NCBI GenBank assembly: GCA_018241125.1
Contig: JAFEEL010000003.1
Span: 57,972-121,971 of the forward strand
Length of the DNA: 64,000 nt
Source of the DNA: Pseudomonadota bacterium
GTDB lineage: Bacteria > Pseudomonadota > Gammaproteobacteria > Xanthomonadales > Xanthomonadaceae
Reading direction: 5' to 3'
Part shown: positions 29,926 through 37,553 of the stretch, in pieces
Layout of the letters: each line of letters starts with the position of its first letter
Position numbering within the stretch: position 1 is the stretch's first letter
Program-made: the position numbers and the translations under genes
Notes under the pieces: model-generated
What the model saw: only the letters and a program-made list of their open reading frames with translations
Databases searched by the model: none
What the model was told of the DNA's origin: nothing

Positions 29926-31254
29926 ATGACCGCATTCGTACCCGTACCGCCTGCCGGCGGGCAGCGCATCCACAAAAACCCGCACGGTCTGGTCGTGCCC
30001 GACAAGCCGATCATTCCCTTCATCGAGGGCGACGGCACCGGCCCGGACATCTGGCGGGCTTCCGTCAGGGTGCTCGACGCAGCCGTGGCCAAGGCTTACG
30101 GCGGTGCGCGCAAGTTGATGTGGATGGAAGTGCTGGCCGGCGAGAAGGCATTCGAGACCACCGGCAACTGGCTGCCGGACGAAACGGTCAATGCCTGTCG
30201 CGATTACCTGGTTTCGATCAAAGGGCCGCTGACCACCCCGGTCGGCGGCGGCATCCGCTCGCTCAACGTGGCGCTGCGGCAGCTGCTCGACCTGTACGTG
30301 TGCCTGCGCCCGGTACGCTGGTTCCGCGGCGTGCCCTCGCCGGTGAAAGACCCCGGCAAGGTGGACATGACCATCTTCCGCGAGAACACCGAGGACATCT
30401 ACGCCGGCATCGAGTTCGAGGCCGGCAGCGAGGACGCGCGCAAGGTGCTCGACTTTTTGCAGAAGGAATTCCCGAAATCCTTCGACAAGATCCGCTTCGG
30501 CACGCAGGCGAAAAACGACGCGTGGAACGCCGCGCTGGAAGGCATCGGCATGCCCCACCGCGTGAGCCCTGTGCAGGTGGGCGTGGGCATCAAGCCGGTG
30601 TCGTACTTGGGCACCGAGCGCCTCGTGCACAGCGCGATCGAGTACGCCATCCGCGAACAGCGCAAGTCGGTCACGCTGGTGCACAAGGGCAACATCATGA
30701 AGTATTCCGAGGGCGCGTTCCGCGACTTCGGCTACAAGGTCGCGCGCGAGTTCTTCGGTGCAGTCGAACTCGACGGCGGGCCGTGGCACGTCATCCCGGC
30801 AGGCAAGCCGGGCGCGGGCATCGTCATCAAGGACGCCATCGCCGACGCCTTCCTGCAACAGATCCTGCTGCGCCCAGCCGAATATCAAGTCGTGGCCACG
30901 CTCAACCTCAACGGCGATTACCTGTCCGATGCGCTGGCCGCGCAGGTCGGCGGCATCGGCATCGCCCCGGGCGCGAACATCAACTACGTCACCGGGCATG
31001 CGGTGTTCGAAGCCACCCACGGCACCGCGCCCAAGTACGCGGGCTTGGACAAGGTCAATCCCGGCTCGCTGATCCTCTCGGGTGAAATGATGCTGCGTTA
31101 CATGGGCTGGACGGAAGCGGCCGACGCCATCATCCGCGCGATGGACAAGGCGATCGGCGCCAAGCAGGTGACCTACGACTTCGCGCGGTTGATGGACGGG
31201 GCGACCGAGATCAAGTGCAGCCAGTTCGGCGATGCGCTGATCGCGGCGATGTAA
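29926..31254 (+). CDS. icd: NADP-dependent isocitrate dehydrogenase
   Basis: A 442-residue dimeric-type enzyme of the TCA cycle. The substrate loop [13 protein letters not shown] holds Ser112, equivalent to the serine that AceK phosphorylates in E. coli. [48 protein letters not shown] and [12 protein letters not shown] complete the active site. It is about 25 residues longer than E. coli Icd. ATG 29926 follows CGGAG. After the stop the region holds C-rich hairpin repeats that may serve as terminator. No glyoxylate-shunt genes are nearby. Confidence 0.95.
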
Positions 31255-31478: not shown

Positions 31479-31625
31479 CTACTTGTTGATGATGATCGGC
31501 GCAGGTTTGGACTGGGTCTTCGCACCGCCGGGGCGGCCCATCTCATCCACCTCGGGCATTCCTTCGGCCTGCTCTTCGCGATCTTCGGGTGCTTGCTCGT
31601 TTTCGTCTTCGTCGGGCGTGTACAT
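31479..31625 (-). CDS. Small acidic protein with IIINK tail
   Basis: A 48-residue protein. The first 30 residues are very acidic (YTPDEDENEQAPEDREEQ), and the tail GGAKTQSKPAPIIINK is basic and ends in Ile-Ile-Ile-Asn-Lys. The next gene upstream ends in exactly the same five residues. ATG 31625 has CAGGAG nine bases before it, which supports real translation. It has no signal peptide, membrane helix or recognised domain. It is the third gene of a unit with the TIR-TPR protein, after a 111-bp gap. I do not recognise a family; it could be a small effector, regulator or peptide precursor. Confidence 0.6.
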   Translation of the reverse strand: MYTPDEDENEQAPEDREEQAEGMPEVDEMGRPGGAKTQSKPAPIIINK

Positions 31626-31736
31626 GGCGTGCTCCTGATGGAGGATCTGCGCGCTGGATGTCAGTGACCGCACCGGAGAGTCCCGTCACGGAAGGACGGC
31701 CCGCGCGCGCGGCCGCCTGATTACATTCGGTCGATA

Positions 31737-32174
31737 TCACTTGTTGATGATGATCCCGCCGCCCGGTCCGCCCTGTTGTGCGATGGTGACGGCCGACGAC
31801 GTGGTGTACGTCTTGCCCTTGTATACGGCAGCCAGAACGTATGATCGGGTCATGACCATGGCGTGGTAATCCGTGACATGCACTTCATGAACCTTGGAGT
31901 CGACCGATGGCTTGCCGAATTCTCCCGACGTGGGCAACGGCGCCGAAAACGCGAACGCGCTGGTGCCGGCAGGAAGGCCGTCGAAGGTGGCGCCTGAGAG
32001 ACTATTGGGATCGAAATAAAAGATAATCGTCAACGGCATCGCGACGCAGATGTCCGGGATGGACAGCGTGTCATTTACCCGCGATACCGGTATCCGCAAT
32101 TCCGGCAGCGGCGGCGTCTTGCTCTTGTTGGCGGCAGGCTTCTTCGCGGCGGATCCTTTCTTCGCAGTGCTCAT
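31737..32174 (-). CDS. Unknown 145-residue protein with Lys/Ala-rich start and IIINK tail
   Basis: A protein of two parts. Residues 1-22 (MSTAKKGSAAKKPAANKSK) are histone-H1-like. The rest appears to be a beta-rich domain with DTLSIPDICVAMPLTIIFYF, VHEVHVTDYHAMVMTRSYVLAAVYKGKTY and a glycine-rich end GGPGGGIIINK. The final IIINK equals that of the 48-residue protein downstream. A GGAGA site precedes ATG 32174. It lies 65 bp after the TIR-TPR gene on the same strand. No catalytic motif is visible and I do not recognise the family. The basic N-terminus may bind nucleic acid; this is speculation. Confidence 0.62.
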   Translation of the reverse strand: MSTAKKGSAAKKPAANKSKTPPLPELRIPVSRVNDTLSIPDICVAMPLTIIFYFDPNSLSGATFDGLPAGTSAFAFSAPLPTSGEFGKPSVDSKVHEVHVTDYHAMVMTRSYVLAAVYKGKTYTTSSAVTIAQQGGPGGGIIINK

Positions 32175-32239
32175 CGGGCGTCTCCAGTCCCCAAGTGCGT
32201 CAGATAGTGCGCCATGACGGCGTGTCGCCGTGCTGACGG

Positions 32240-34351
32240 TCACGGGCGATGGATGGCGTCGCTGGGCGCGGCGAGAGTCGTCTTGTCGGTCGCTTGCGGC
32301 GCTTTACGCAAACCCTGCAACGCTTCGTCGCGCAACGCCAGCAGGCGCGGATCGCGCTGGCCGCTGGTCTGCGCCTGCACGGTCGTGAGCACCTGCTGGC
32401 GCAAGTGCATCGATTCGGCCTCGTCGTCGCTGCTGGCCGCCAGCGCCAACCGCGCCGCAAGTGCGGCCAGCACGATGGCGCGATCCTGCGATTTGGCCGC
32501 CAGCATCGGATCGAGCACGGCCAGCGCCGCGTGCGCGCCGGCGCGCGCTGCCGCATTGTCGCCGGCGGCATGATCTTGTACGGATTTTTCCACCAGTGCC
32601 TCGGCGCGCTCGAGTTGCCAGTCCGCGCGAGCGGGATCCTGATGCACCAGATCGTCGAACACCGCCAGCGACCGCGCCACCAGCTTTCCGGCTTCCGCCG
32701 TCTGCCCGCGCTGGCGCAACAGGCCCGCGAGCTGGGCGGCGTATAGCGCCGCGTCCTCGGCGAAGCCCATGTGCGTCTTGTCCAGCGCGTGCAGGCGTTC
32801 GGCCCCCGCCTGCGCGATGCGCAAGTGTGCAATGCCGCCGTCGAGATCACCGGCCAGCGCGAGCGCTCGTCCCAGCGCCGCTTGCGACAACAGGGGAGCT
32901 TCCATCTCCGCCACGTTGCGCGAGGCGCGATGCGCGATCGCGGTCTGGATCGCCAGGTCGGCACGGTATTCGGCCACTGCGGTGGGCAGTTCGCCGTCGA
33001 GTACGGCCATCTTGGCGAGGTTGTTGTGCGCCAAGCCCAACAACGAGTTCCATTGTTCGTTGGTGGCATCGATGGCCACCAGCGCCGTGCTCAGGTCGAG
33101 CAGGTGCCTGTACTGCGCGCGCGCCGCGTTGGTGCGTCCGCGAGCCTCCAGTATGTGCGCCGTGTTGTTGACAACGCCGGCTAGCTGGTAGAGCAGGGTG
33201 GGATCGCGTGGTGCGAGCGGGCGGGCGCGGTCGAGGATGGCTTGCACATCCTCGAAGCCGTGCTGCGCTCCAGCTAGGTCACCCTGGTACCAACGCATCA
33301 TGCCGACAAACATCAAATCGCTGGCGTACGCGAGTTGACGCGCCAGGTTGCGCGGTTGCGCCGCCGCCAGCCGCTGCGTGAGCGCGACCGCGGCCTGGTA
33401 GGACTCCAGCGCCTGCGGCAGGTGGCCTTGATTCTGACGCACGTCGCCGATCAAGACGTAGGCCTTGGCGCGCTGCTCCAGAGTCTGGTCGGTGACGTCG
33501 GCGACCGGCAACGACTGGAAGTAGGCCATTGCATGGTCATCCACCGCTTCCAGAATATCCTGCCGCGACACCTCGCGCAGCTTGTCGTTGAGATCGCCGA
33601 GCATGAAGCCCACCAGCGCCTCGGCCTGTTTCTGCCGGCGCTGCGCGTCGTTGCGCGCGATCACCGCCTGCACCGCGAGGAAGCTGGTCACCAGCATCGC
33701 CAGCACCGAAGCGGCGGTGATCGCCAGCATGCGCCGATTGCGCCGATGAACCTCGCGCCGGCGCAGCACGTCCAGTTCCACGCCCAGCAGCCCCGACAGC
33801 AGCTTGAGCCGCGCCAGCGGCCAGCCATCGCCGCCCGGGCGCAGATCGGCGGCGAGCGGTTCGGCCGGCCGCGTGCCGATCTGGCCGTCGGCATCCAGTT
33901 CGAAGCGCAGCGCCGGCGGGAAACACTCGTGGGTGGGGTCACCCGGCTCACCATCCACGATCAGGCAATAGATGCGGTGGGTGCGCCCGAGGCGCTTGAA
34001 CTCCAGCACTTCGTTGTTGACCCAATGCGAGCGCGCGGCCGCGCGCGAACACACCACGATCAGGGCATCGGAATCGATCAGCGCGGCACGGATGCTGGCG
34101 CCCAACTCATCGGCGCTGGCCAGATCCTCGCGATCCAGAAAGATCGGCGCAGCGCGCGTGGGCAAGGGGCCGAACGTGCCTTGGGTGCCACGCAGGCGCG
34201 AGGGCACGCGATAACTTTCGAGCTGGCGATGCAGCCGGGTGGCGATCGCCTTGTCGTGGTGGCCGTAGCTGATGAAGGCGCGATAGCGTCTGCGGCCCGA
34301 TTCGGCCGACGACTCCGCTGTTGCAACGTCAGGGCGAACCTGTACGTCCAT
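32240..34351 (-). CDS. Membrane-anchored TIR domain protein with C-terminal TPR repeats
   Basis: A 703-residue protein. Residues 22-160 form a TIR_2-type domain: YRAFISYGHHDKAIATRLHRQLE, PIFLDREDL, and SRAAARSHWVNNEVLEF, in which Glu114 matches the catalytic or structural Glu of bacterial TIRs. One membrane helix (208-230, AITAASVLAMLVTSFLAVQAV) follows. Residues 240-690 hold TPR-like helical pairs (YVLIGDVRQNQGHLPQALESYQAAVAL and others), by topology probably periplasmic. ATG 34351 is chosen over upstream in-frame starts because the sequence before it is low in protein character. It heads a unit with two small genes that share an IIINK tail. A signalling or defence role is possible; there is no ThsA, cyclase or NLR gene beside it. 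Confidence 0.82.
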   Translation of the reverse strand: MDVQVRPDVATAESSAESGRRRYRAFISYGHHDKAIATRLHRQLESYRVPSRLRGTQGTFGPLPTRAAPIFLDREDLASADELGASIRAALIDSDALIVVCSRAAARSHWVNNEVLEFKRLGRTHRIYCLIVDGEPGDPTHECFPPALRFELDADGQIGTRPAEPLAADLRPGGDGWPLARLKLLSGLLGVELDVLRRREVHRRNRRMLAITAASVLAMLVTSFLAVQAVIARNDAQRRQKQAEALVGFMLGDLNDKLREVSRQDILEAVDDHAMAYFQSLPVADVTDQTLEQRAKAYVLIGDVRQNQGHLPQALESYQAAVALTQRLAAAQPRNLARQLAYASDLMFVGMMRWYQGDLAGAQHGFEDVQAILDRARPLAPRDPTLLYQLAGVVNNTAHILEARGRTNAARAQYRHLLDLSTALVAIDATNEQWNSLLGLAHNNLAKMAVLDGELPTAVAEYRADLAIQTAIAHRASRNVAEMEAPLLSQAALGRALALAGDLDGGIAHLRIAQAGAERLHALDKTHMGFAEDAALYAAQLAGLLRQRGQTAEAGKLVARSLAVFDDLVHQDPARADWQLERAEALVEKSVQDHAAGDNAAARAGAHAALAVLDPMLAAKSQDRAIVLAALAARLALAASSDDEAESMHLRQQVLTTVQAQTSGQRDPRLLALRDEALQGLRKAPQATDKTTLAAPSDAIHRP

Positions 34352-34453: not shown

Positions 34454-35356
34454 TCAGTCCAGCGCCTGGTTCAGCACCGCCGCCAGCCGCACGCCGGCCT
34501 TCTGCAACTGCTCGCGCACCACCGGCCAGGCCCAATCCTGATAGGCGCGATCCCAGCCGGACGGGTAGTTTGCCGGCAAGCGCGCGTAGGCTTGCCGCGC
34601 CAGCGTGTGACCTTCGTCGGCCCATGCGATGGTGGCAGCGTCGATATTCGCGACGAGATTGGCTGCCGCCCACGCCGTACGCTGCGCCGGCGTGATCTGG
34701 CGGTCGAGCGCGGCAGCCTGGGCGCGCACCGCATCGTGGTCGAAGGAAAAGTTCCAACCCAGCCGCCAGTGGTAGTGGGTCTCGATGATGCCCATGTCCC
34801 ACAGCGCGTGCAGGTTCGTGCGTGCACCGTTGTAATACAGCACGCGCGCGTTGCCGCCGCCGTCGTGGTCGTCGGCGTCGTGCAGCGGCTGGTGGATGTC
34901 GCCGGTCAGGTGCACCACCCACTTGAGCGCTTCCAGCCGCTCGCCATCCGGGCGCGAGCGGTCACGCAAAATTCCGACGAAATACGGCAGCTTGGCGACC
35001 ACGCAATTCGTCACGTCGCGCTGGCGACGCCCGCGCCCGCGCCGGCAGTCGCGCGGCGCGTCGTAGCCATCGGCATCCAGCGGGATGTCCACGTAATGCC
35101 ACGGCCCGGTCTTGCGGCGCTGCGCGCGGATCGCGTCGGCCCACGAGGAAATCTCGTCCAGCGAGGTCTTCGCGCCGTCGTCGTCGTGCGCCAGCAGGCG
35201 AGCCACTTCGCGGCGCGCCGATGGATCCAGACGCGCCTGCGCGATGTCGGCGACGAGCGCGTGGCCTTCCGGGCCCCAGGCACGCGCGCACGGCACCACG
35301 CCCAGCGTCACGACGACGAGCACACCGGCCAGCATCGCGGCACGGATGCGGTGCAT
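34454..35356 (-). CDS. Secreted S1/P1-family nuclease
   Basis: A 300-residue exported zinc nuclease. A signal peptide of 26 residues ends CARA, so the mature protein starts at Trp27, the family's first zinc ligand, with His32 in WGPEGH the second. Further ligands lie in DEISSWAD, WHYVDIPL, HLTGDIHQPLHDADDHDGGGN and NLHALWDMGIIE. It cleaves single-stranded nucleic acid and 3'-nucleotides in the periplasm or outside the cell. ATG 35356 gives the signal peptide directly; an earlier frame start adds a tryptophan- and arginine-rich stretch. It lies 10 bp after glyS on the same strand. Confidence 0.92.
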   Translation of the reverse strand: MHRIRAAMLAGVLVVVTLGVVPCARAWGPEGHALVADIAQARLDPSARREVARLLAHDDDGAKTSLDEISSWADAIRAQRRKTGPWHYVDIPLDADGYDAPRDCRRGRGRRQRDVTNCVVAKLPYFVGILRDRSRPDGERLEALKWVVHLTGDIHQPLHDADDHDGGGNARVLYYNGARTNLHALWDMGIIETHYHWRLGWNFSFDHDAVRAQAAALDRQITPAQRTAWAAANLVANIDAATIAWADEGHTLARQAYARLPANYPSGWDRAYQDWAWPVVREQLQKAGVRLAAVLNQALD

Positions 35357-35366
35357 GTCGGCCTGC

Positions 35367-37553
35367 TCAGCCGGCGGCCAGCGTGGCGATCTGCGCCACC
35401 GCCGCAAAGCGGTCGGCGAGCAACATCAGCAGCGCCAGTCGGTTACCACGCACGCGCACGTCTTCGACGTTCACCATCACGCCCTCGAAGAACGCATCCA
35501 CCGCAGGGCGCAGCGCCGCCAGCCGCCGCAACACGCCGATATAGTCGCGCTGGGCGAGCAATGGATCGGTATCGGCGATGGCCGACTCCATCGCCGCGTG
35601 CAGGATGCGCTCGGCGTGATGGTCGAACAACGCCGGCTCGACCGCTGACGGGATCACGTCGCTGGATTTTTTCAGGATGTTGCCGATGCGCTTGTTCGCC
35701 GCCGCCAGCGCGGGGGCTTCGGGCAGCTTGGCGAACTCTCCGAGGGCTTTGAGGCGGCGGTCGAAATCGAGCAGCGAAACCGTCTGCCGCTCGTGGTGAG
35801 GAGCCGCCGAGCTTGCCGAGGCATCACTTGGAACCGGTTCGTGGTGAGGAGCCGCCGAGCTTGCCGAGGCGGCGTCTCGAACCACCCCCATCACCGCCTG
35901 CACCGCCTCGAACTGTGGCGCGGTGAAGCCTTGATCGGCGTAGTAACCGCGCAAGCGATCGAGGATGAAGTCCAGCAAGTCCTCGGGCGTGCCGGCTTTC
36001 GCGCCAACGAAGGCGACACTCGCGTGTGCGCGTTCGAGCAAGGCCCGCAAATCCAGATCCAACCCGCCTTCGATGATCGTGCGCGCCAACCCCAGCGCGT
36101 TTCGGCGCAGTGCGAACGGATCCTTGTTGCCGGTCGGCTTCAGCCCCGCCGCGAAACCGCCCGCGAGGGTATCGAGCTTGTCGGCAATCGCCAGCGCCTG
36201 CCCGAGTGGCGACGGCGCGATCCCATCGGCGGCAAAGCGCGGCATGTACGCGTGGTCGATGGCATCGGCCACCGCGCCCGCTTCGCCCATCGCGCTGGCG
36301 TAGTAGCGACCTGCGATGCCCTGCAACTCCGGAAACTCGCCGACCATGCGCGATTGCAGGTCGGCCTTCGACAGCTCGGCGGCGCGGCGCGCCTGCGCCG
36401 GATCGAGGCCCAGCTGATGCGCAATGGATTCGACCAGCACGGCCACGCGCGCGGTCTTGTCGGTGTAGCTGCCCAGCTTGTGCTGGTAGGTTACCGCAGC
36501 CAGCCCCGCGCCCATCGCGTCCAGACCCTGCTCGATGTCCTCGTCGTAGAAGAACTTGGCGTCGGCAAAGCGCGGGCGGATCACGCGCTCGTAGCCGGCA
36601 CGGATCTGTGCCGGATCGGCGCTATCGATGTTGGCCACGCCGACGAAGTGCGCAGTCAGGCGGCTTTGCGCGTCGAGCGCCGGGAAAAACTTCTGGTTGG
36701 CCTGCATGGTGGAGATGAGCGCCTCGTGGGGCACGCGCAGGAACTCCGCATCGAACGCGCAGACGATCGCATGCGGCCATTCGACCAGACCATTGACCTC
36801 CTCGAGCAGATCGGCATCCATGCGTGCTTGCGCATCGACCGCCGCTGCCGCCACGTGCACCTGCGCACGCACGCGCTCACGGCGCTCGTCCGGATCGACC
36901 AGCACTTGCGCTGCGCGCAGCGCGGTCACGTAATCACCCGGCTCGCCGATCCACACCTTGCCCGGATGGTGGAAACGGTGGCCGCGACTCATGCGGTCGG
37001 CGCGGATGCCGAACACCTGTGCTTCCACCACGTCCTTGCCGTGCAACAGCACCAGCCAATGCAGCGGACGGGCGAAGGCGAACTCGTGATCGCCCCAGCG
37101 CATCGGCTTGGGGATCGGCATGCCGGCGATCGCCTCGCGCACGATGTCGCCAAGAAGTTCGGTGGTTCGCGCACCGGCGGTGACGCGTCGCGCCGCGAAG
37201 CGCTCGCCCTTCGCGTCGCTCACGCGGACGAGTTGCGAAGCATCGACGCCGTTCTTCTGCGCGAAACCGCGCAGCGCCGGCGTCGGCTGACCGTTGCCGT
37301 CCAGCCCGATATTGAGATACGGGCCGAGCACTTCGCTGCGCTGCTCGGGCTGCTCGTCGGCCACCTGCGGCAGCAGCACGGCGAGCCTGCGCGGCGAGTA
37401 CAAGGGCTTGGCAGCGCCGGCTTCGCATTCAATCCCGCGCTTGGCGAGGCCCGCTTGCACACCCGCGAACAGCGACTGCGCCAACTGCGGCAGCGCCTTG
37501 ACCGGCAGCTCCTCGGTGCCCAGTTCGATCAGCAACGGCTTCATCGTGTTCAT
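35367..37553 (-). CDS. glyS: Glycyl-tRNA synthetase beta subunit
   Basis: A 728-residue beta subunit of the alpha2-beta2 GlyRS. It opens with [16 protein letters not shown] and carries [41 protein letters not shown] and the later [14 protein letters not shown] and [15 protein letters not shown]. The C-terminal anticodon-binding part holds [13 protein letters not shown] and [22 protein letters not shown]. Between about residues 556 and 588 an in-frame insert ([13 protein letters not shown] repeated) comes from an intergenic-type repeat. ATG 37553 overlaps the glyQ stop by 4 bp. Apart from the insert it is a normal housekeeping gene. Confidence 0.96.
35788..35885. repeat. Two REP-like copies inserted in frame in glyS
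   Basis: Two 33-bp copies of CTCGTGGTGAGGAGCCGCC plus GAGCTTGCCGAGGC lie at about 35790-35822 and 35838-35870. The second ends in CTCGAACCAC. The GTTCGTGGTGAG start and CGAACCAC end match the repeats at 48142-48335 and 62022-62083, which are outside genes. Here the element is read through as coding sequence of glyS and adds roughly 30 residues. Confidence 0.85.

Follow-up and report, generated by a model that had tools for sequence, protein, structure and literature searches.

Membrane TIR-TPR receptors and small partner proteins sharing a C-terminal P-x-I-x-N tail in a recurring putative operon of Xanthomonadaceae and related bacteria

Results

In a 64,000-nucleotide stretch of a Xanthomonadaceae genome (assembly GCA_018241125.1, contig JAFEEL010000003.1, positions 57,972 to 121,971; the window hereafter), a cassette of three minus-strand genes encodes a protein with a TIR domain, a transmembrane (TM) helix, and TPRs, followed by proteins of 145 and 48 residues. 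Sequence comparison confirmed this cassette as a representative of a recurring putative operon type, in which a membrane receptor with exchangeable heads is paired with small proteins that share a C-terminal tail. A previous examination of the letters alone (the sequence-only reading) had proposed the arrangement of 703, 145, and 48 residues on one strand and had noticed that both small proteins end in IIINK directly at the stop codon. Open reading frame (ORF) coordinates bore out the former and the sequence the latter: the 145-residue protein closes with PGGGIIINK, and the 48-residue protein, which contains 13 Asp or Glu residues, with PAPIIINK. The motif that recurs is P-x-I-x-N, and IIINK is only its local spelling; thus, the notion of a shared end signal stood, whereas IIINK as the motif did not.

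To quantify the tail, related loci were gathered with a TIR-TPR alignment (A2), giving 77 loci from named records (Rhodanobacter, Dyella, Luteibacter, Frateuria, Thermomonas, and metagenome-assembled genomes), in 73 of which the TIR-TPR ORF is complete. ORFs of at least 30 residues were searched for the pattern P.[IV].N.{0,4}$, and those with a stop 0 to 1.6 kb after the TIR gene were counted as downstream. On the same strand, 84 of 588 downstream ORFs in the 73 loci carried the pattern, compared to 5 of 608 upstream, 7 of 594 inside the TIR span (which covers the intergenic gap where a locus has two TIR genes), and 4 of 2431 farther off; the opposite strand gave 1 of 1429 nearby, 1 of 872 inside, and 3 of 2456 far away. 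Six control motifs were each found on 0 or 1 of the 588 downstream ORFs. The downstream enrichment led us to reject a chance origin of the tails, and the random scatter near unrelated genes that would have spoken against a cassette did not occur. Nor did TIR-TPR homologues always stand alone, since 61 of the 73 loci encode a tailed protein by the strict pattern. These counts identify a conserved cassette whose tail is a real common signal. A DNA-level search for the tail pattern over 185 genomes was dropped as too noisy, with matches in all genomes.

Local spellings of the tail vary together. Same-genus relatives keep both small genes with co-varied tails (PIIINKKQ/PIIINKRE in L132 and L133, GPIIINKAA/GPIIINKDK in L134), and homologues with inspected flanks have NPIIIND/NPIIINH in G160, TPTIKNN/RPTIKNN in G022, and DPTIKNR/EPMIKNR in G275, where NPSIKNN is also present on a secreted-looking protein. 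In 28 pairs from 20 loci, the tail spelling of the beta-sandwich protein was compared with that of the unrelated short protein of the same locus, and the match scored 51, versus 24.0 in 20,000 permutations. One of the 28 short partners was another beta type and was excluded in a retest (27 pairs, 51 versus 23.4, P = 5e-5). The match persisted without near-duplicate loci (24 pairs, 45 versus 21.7, P = 5e-5) and when the IIIN clade was also removed (21 pairs, 15 loci, 37 versus 23.0, P = 5e-5). After the Asn of the motif, exactly one residue follows in 83 and three in 13 of the 96 tails near TIR genes. Zero, two, or four residues were never seen, though the pattern allowed them, as if strand register mattered.

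Unrelated bodies carry the tail: one is a beta-sandwich, another a short acidic string, and a few more are short and look secreted. Among the 61 loci with a tailed protein, 30 have A1-type beta proteins only, 22 have both kinds, and 9 lack an A1-type beta gene, of which 6 have the short acidic protein only and 3 another beta-like protein. A tail-free beta profile searched in the 77 loci at E < 1e-5 recovered 59 ORFs, and all 59 bear the tail, against a background of 92 of 5564 ORFs of at least 60 residues, the 59 included; as the tail had guided the choice of the A1 rows, this result demonstrates retention of the tail among relatives and not its presence on every such domain. Although mean column identity is 21% over the 130 scored columns of a 47-row beta alignment, the tail Pro and Asn are present in 47/47 rows and the Ile in 46/47. 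The 145-residue window protein is a member of this family. The short proteins, of approximately 42 to 71 residues with starts partly chosen by eye, have a high content of Pro, Asn, and Gln and are for the most part acidic. A crude rule found signal-peptide-like starts in 4 of the 96 tailed proteins, and two more (L173 and L190) were noticed by eye. Three short secreted-looking proteins combine two spaced cysteines (FACAIGSQSC) with the same tail (L147:8798-8995, L167:9161-9361, and L173:9218-9400).

The receptors share a further module. The window protein shows the architecture of a head, one TM helix, an FMLGDL juxtamembrane segment, and TPRs, at E 1.9e-45 against a model of which the window is itself a row. 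Pfam gave TIR_2 at 39.9 bits (cut-off 28), ThsB_TIR at 25.6 (cut-off 21.2), and weak TPR matches. The TIR motif S-x-W-V-x-x-E contains E114, which is invariant across 26 sequences and which we presume to be the catalytic Glu. Crude hydropathy placed one TM helix in 25 of 26 receptors, with the N-terminal side more positive in 25 of 26, and both features predict a periplasmic TPR. A TIR-TPR query that made no use of the tail matched 100 of 299 genomes of the window's order at E <= 1e-10, some over the TPR half only. Of 274 genomes across the class, only 3 matched the receptor-module profile, 2 of them from the window's family, including the window's own genome; thus, the module is rare outside the window's order in that sample. 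Tandem TIR-TPR gene pairs occur in single loci (L139, L150, L178, L190, L195, and L112), several with differently spelled tail partners.

Tailed partners also accompany receptors with other heads. The weaker matches of the order-wide search covered the TM-TPR half only, and 40 regions were fetched from among them; L209 to L238 were counted, while L239 to L248, which are TIR headed or fragments, were left out. Of the resulting 30 TM-TPR genes with other heads, 2 have no downstream room (L229 and L235), leaving 28 assessable. Behind 17 of these lies a gene for a small protein that closes with DPx[IVM]xN and at most 15 further residues. This motif was found on 17 of 45 next-downstream ORFs but on 4 of 1576 other ORFs, and three scrambled versions were found on 0 of 45. 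Heads were scanned in five tail-partnered receptors, which comprise three Ser/Thr kinases, one Trans_reg_C-nSTAND1 protein, and one nSTAND1 protein. Co-occurrence of the tail with TIR, kinase, and nSTAND1 heads on a common TM-TPR half supports the earlier guess that the TPR part may use the tail.

One kinase partner gave a subthreshold match to the Pfam family DP-EP (18.2 bits, cut-off 25). A search of 299 genomes from the phylum detected DP-EP (PF08985, which we take to be the former DUF1888) in 5, and all 5 belong to the window's class. The six DP-EP genes found there all encode proteins with DPx[IVM]xN and a few more residues at the C terminus, and at 5/5 loci they lie directly behind a Trans_reg_C-nSTAND1 protein. 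Pfam TPR matches reached E 1e-4 in 3/5 of these nSTAND1 proteins, and all three that were extracted show the juxtamembrane module. One DP-EP protein matched 3njh and other PDB chains (E 8e-16); by entry titles, these are SO1698 of Shewanella oneidensis (3n55 and 3njf-3njn), released in 2010 as an aspartic peptidase. The SO1698 chain has 119 residues in the wild type and in Y26F, K98A, P115A, and Q118A but 128 in D37A, S114A, D116A, and P117A, and position 119 of the chain is occupied by the Asp of the Asp-Pro bond before QIIN. The two lengths agree with self-cleavage at this bond, a property of SO1698 that Osipiuk et al. reportedly described in 2012. A part of PMC11655445 describes the use of SO1698 as a self-cleaving sequence. 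The open-licence papers searched contained no link of DP-EP to TPR receptors or to a tail common to other proteins.

The structure model of the 145-residue protein matches the SO1698 fold, and its tail overlies the segment after the SO1698 cut: residues 140 to 144 are modelled as a beta-strand that follows a low-confidence linker (129 to 137). Judged by the model, the 145-residue protein is a DP-EP-like beta-sandwich. Its sequence, however, stays below the curated DP-EP cut-off, with 0 Pfam families up to E 1, and has no Asp-Pro site before the tail (GGPGGGIIINK, without Asp). Neither the 145- nor the 48-residue protein matched any Pfam or NCBIfam family, and the structure database searched by sequence with the A1 profile or the L227 protein gave no match up to E 1.

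A tail modelled as a strand allows readings other than a ligand. It could be an edge strand of the sandwich for which the short acidic protein competes in trans, with the TPR reading the complex; the overlap with the SO1698 segment behind the cut site and the 22 loci with both carrier types are consistent with such strand exchange. The short acidic protein is, however, the sole tailed partner at 6 of the 61 loci, with no A1-type beta gene found, and 30 loci have A1-type beta proteins only, so we consider this rather doubtful. A purely structural tail would merely complete the sandwich, the short proteins being relics of duplicated 3' ends. Repeated beta paralogues at some loci fit this idea, as does the modelled strand, but the motif is kept in short proteins over many genera, where it co-varies with that of the local beta protein, and a few short proteins themselves begin with a signal-peptide-like segment; we regard such an origin as highly improbable. 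Finally, the tail might mark proteins for self-cleavage before the Pro, as in SO1698, or for secretion. We judge this unlikely: Asn or Asp directly precedes the Pro in 70 of 96 tails (Asp in 9 and Asn in 36 of the 59 beta relatives), and the SO1698 chain lengths agree with cleavage, but G, T, E, S, Q, R, A, L, H, K, or V takes that place in the other 26, and in the window the tail is preceded by Gly or Ala. Thus, the residue at the cut site varies while PxIxN is kept, and processing leaves the linkage to TPR receptors unexplained.

We compared the cassette with known systems. PADLOC returned two weak matches for the TIR-TPR protein (E 0.0081 and 0.08), and a known defense family was rejected on this basis; it assigned no family to three small proteins scanned, which included the 145-residue protein but not the 48-residue one. 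Phage cargo was rejected after 0 matches in a collection of 50,697 phage records, and plasmid cargo after only 9 of 72,556 plasmid records gave partial matches (<=60% of the query), with no near-identical DNA. A resemblance to Thoeris lies in the window TIR, which passes the ThsB_TIR cut-off, and in a SLATT-like neighbor at related loci. In place of the Thoeris layout, however, a membrane TPR receptor with tailed partners is found, and the TIR falls far short of a ThsB/ThcB equivalog (NCBIfam ThcB4, 23.6 bits versus a cut-off of 220). ThsA is a SIR2-SLOG protein, and a Pfam scan of the two genes flanking the cassette revealed none: these encode an S1/P1 nuclease (34454-35407) and an isocitrate/isopropylmalate dehydrogenase-like protein of the Iso_dh type (29929-31254, plus strand).

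TPR solenoids can bind peptides, as in the Hsp90 EEVD clamp and PEX5-PTS1. LGN/Pins and OGT top the list of nearest folds of the window solenoid, and the modelled receptor would share the TPR superhelix with LGN/Pins-type solenoids; the latter are eukaryotic and have neither a TM helix nor a signaling head, and a common fold shows no function. As a part of PMC7159879 describes them, Fxs-type systems place variable small proteins, which end in a conserved motif (FxSxx, RxD, or acidic), beside TIR and TPR/STAND proteins, and a metallopeptidase cuts the precursor. The likeness to FxSxx-COOH/Fxs lies in small tail-motif proteins next to TIR and TPR/STAND proteins, but the window tails read IIINK rather than FxSxx. 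That part of PMC7159879 describes related peptide-plus-TPR conflict systems, not the present cassette.

The SLATT-like neighbor, a protein of approximately 560 residues with weak DUF4231/SLATT matches, lies near the TIR-TPR gene at 52 of the 77 loci (L132 to L208) but not in the window. With E up to 1, DUF4231 was matched by 12/12 and SLATT by 10/12 of the proteins scanned (best, 1.5e-6 and 5.9e-5). Its N-terminal half is presumably SLOG-like, although no SLOG family matched it. The neighbor could possibly receive the product of the TIR domain; by analogy, and speculatively, action of a TIR product on a SLOG/SLATT partner would follow a logic like that of Thoeris. The window's genome has a SLATT-like gene on another contig (G000:C4, L261:5164-6945), beside a second protein with the FMLGDL-TPR module (G000:C4:40368-40697, L265, E 6.4e-13). 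The frames of this second module (L261:6953-11832) are long and nSTAND- or SIR2-like by eye, and no tailed gene was seen there.

Table 1. Features of the cassette, in window coordinates
Feature	Coordinates	Strand	Remark
TIR-TM-TPR protein, 703 residues	32240..34351	-	ATG start
TIR domain, residues 22-190	33782..34288	-	ends approximate
TM helix, residues 209-227	33671..33727	-	single, predicted by crude hydropathy; Lys/Arg enriched on N side
Juxtamembrane segment and first TPRs, residues 241-363	33263..33631	-	QAExLVxFMLGDLxDKL...; module common to kinase- and nSTAND1-headed proteins
TPR solenoid, residues 264-682	32306..33562	-	
145-residue beta-sandwich protein	31737..32174	-	Lys-rich N terminus; SO1698 fold (model)
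C-terminal tail GIIINK, residues 140-145	31740..31757	-	in 145-residue protein
48-residue acidic protein	31479..31625	-	probably disordered
C-terminal tail PIIINK, residues 43-48	31482..31499	-	in 48-residue protein

Discussion

We favor, with a probability of roughly 0.55, a family of receptor operons in which the common juxtamembrane-TPR module recognizes the tail as a short linear ligand. Each operon would supply a membrane receptor and its tail-tagged small partners. The receptor would consist of a cytoplasmic head, one TM helix, and a TPR solenoid, and a TIR head presumably consumes or converts NAD+. Found on unrelated bodies, the P-x-I-x-N tail is most likely bound by the juxtamembrane/TPR module. 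The beta-sandwich body may stow the tail as its own edge strand, and the SO1698 relative appears to cut its chain just before the tail, whereas in the short acidic proteins a flexible string would present it. The head would then be switched when tails become exposed or are removed. A role of the cassette in phage defense is a guess prompted by the TIR domain.

Several observations weigh against this ligand reading. The window itself is imperfect: the 48-residue protein fits the strict pattern, but the 145-residue protein misses it, with G140 in place of the Pro and P137 three residues earlier, and in its model the tail packs on its own sandwich, where it could be structural only. Twelve of the 73 TIR loci fail the strict pattern. 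Six of them have degenerate tails (L155 VPRIKPT, L161 KPRIKPS, L175 NPRIKST, L186 NTGVKNN, L202 DPLIPVIGEPR, and L205 DPMVENEGVSIR), and six have no recognizable tail (L157, L179, L180, L204, L206, and L207). The pattern likewise missed eight distant TIR-TPR loci, two of which have the motif with a longer end (L124 SLDPRIVNKPSS and L100 YDPRIDNRGSP), while no tail was seen at L098, L119, L126, L127, L129, and L131. Eleven of the 28 other-headed receptors have no tailed neighbor; several of these tail-free receptors have, by eye, an extracytoplasmic function sigma-like gene in its place. A carboxylate clamp, moreover, is disfavored by the other-headed loci, where the motif can lie up to approximately 15 residues ahead of the C terminus. 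The permutations leave relatedness between loci partly in the tail-spelling score. Two lone tailed beta genes (L106:8498-8935 and L110:8825-9265) have no receptor within approximately 9 kb; both genomes carry a full cassette elsewhere, and the beta gene of L106 adjoins a SLATT-like gene. Furthermore, the TPR is predicted to be periplasmic, yet only 4 of the 96 tailed proteins have a signal-peptide-like start. The explanation would be export by another route, a tail that works as a released peptide, or an error in the predicted topology.

A broader form of the ligand reading can be put forward only tentatively. PxIxN might be a general bacterial peptide ligand through which many small sensors report to one class of TM-TPR receptor whose heads (TIR, Ser/Thr kinase, or nSTAND1 NTPase) are freely exchanged, with self-cleaving DP-EP as the caged-release form. 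As the tail has only about 6 to 9 residues and the TPR is predicted to be periplasmic, tails from lysing neighbors might even enter via porins and serve as an alarm peptide.

The domain folds involved are already known; the tail-and-receptor logic was not found in the open-licence literature, and other print may hold it. As judged from sequence, the recurring pairing with differing heads points to an undescribed way to plug several sensors into one receptor. If this is true, the orphan self-cleaving DP-EP family would be joined via one tail to TM-TPR receptors with TIR, kinase, and STAND heads. Sensor partners of such receptors could then be found by a sequence rule, and bacterial TIR-TPR proteins would have a first ligand candidate.

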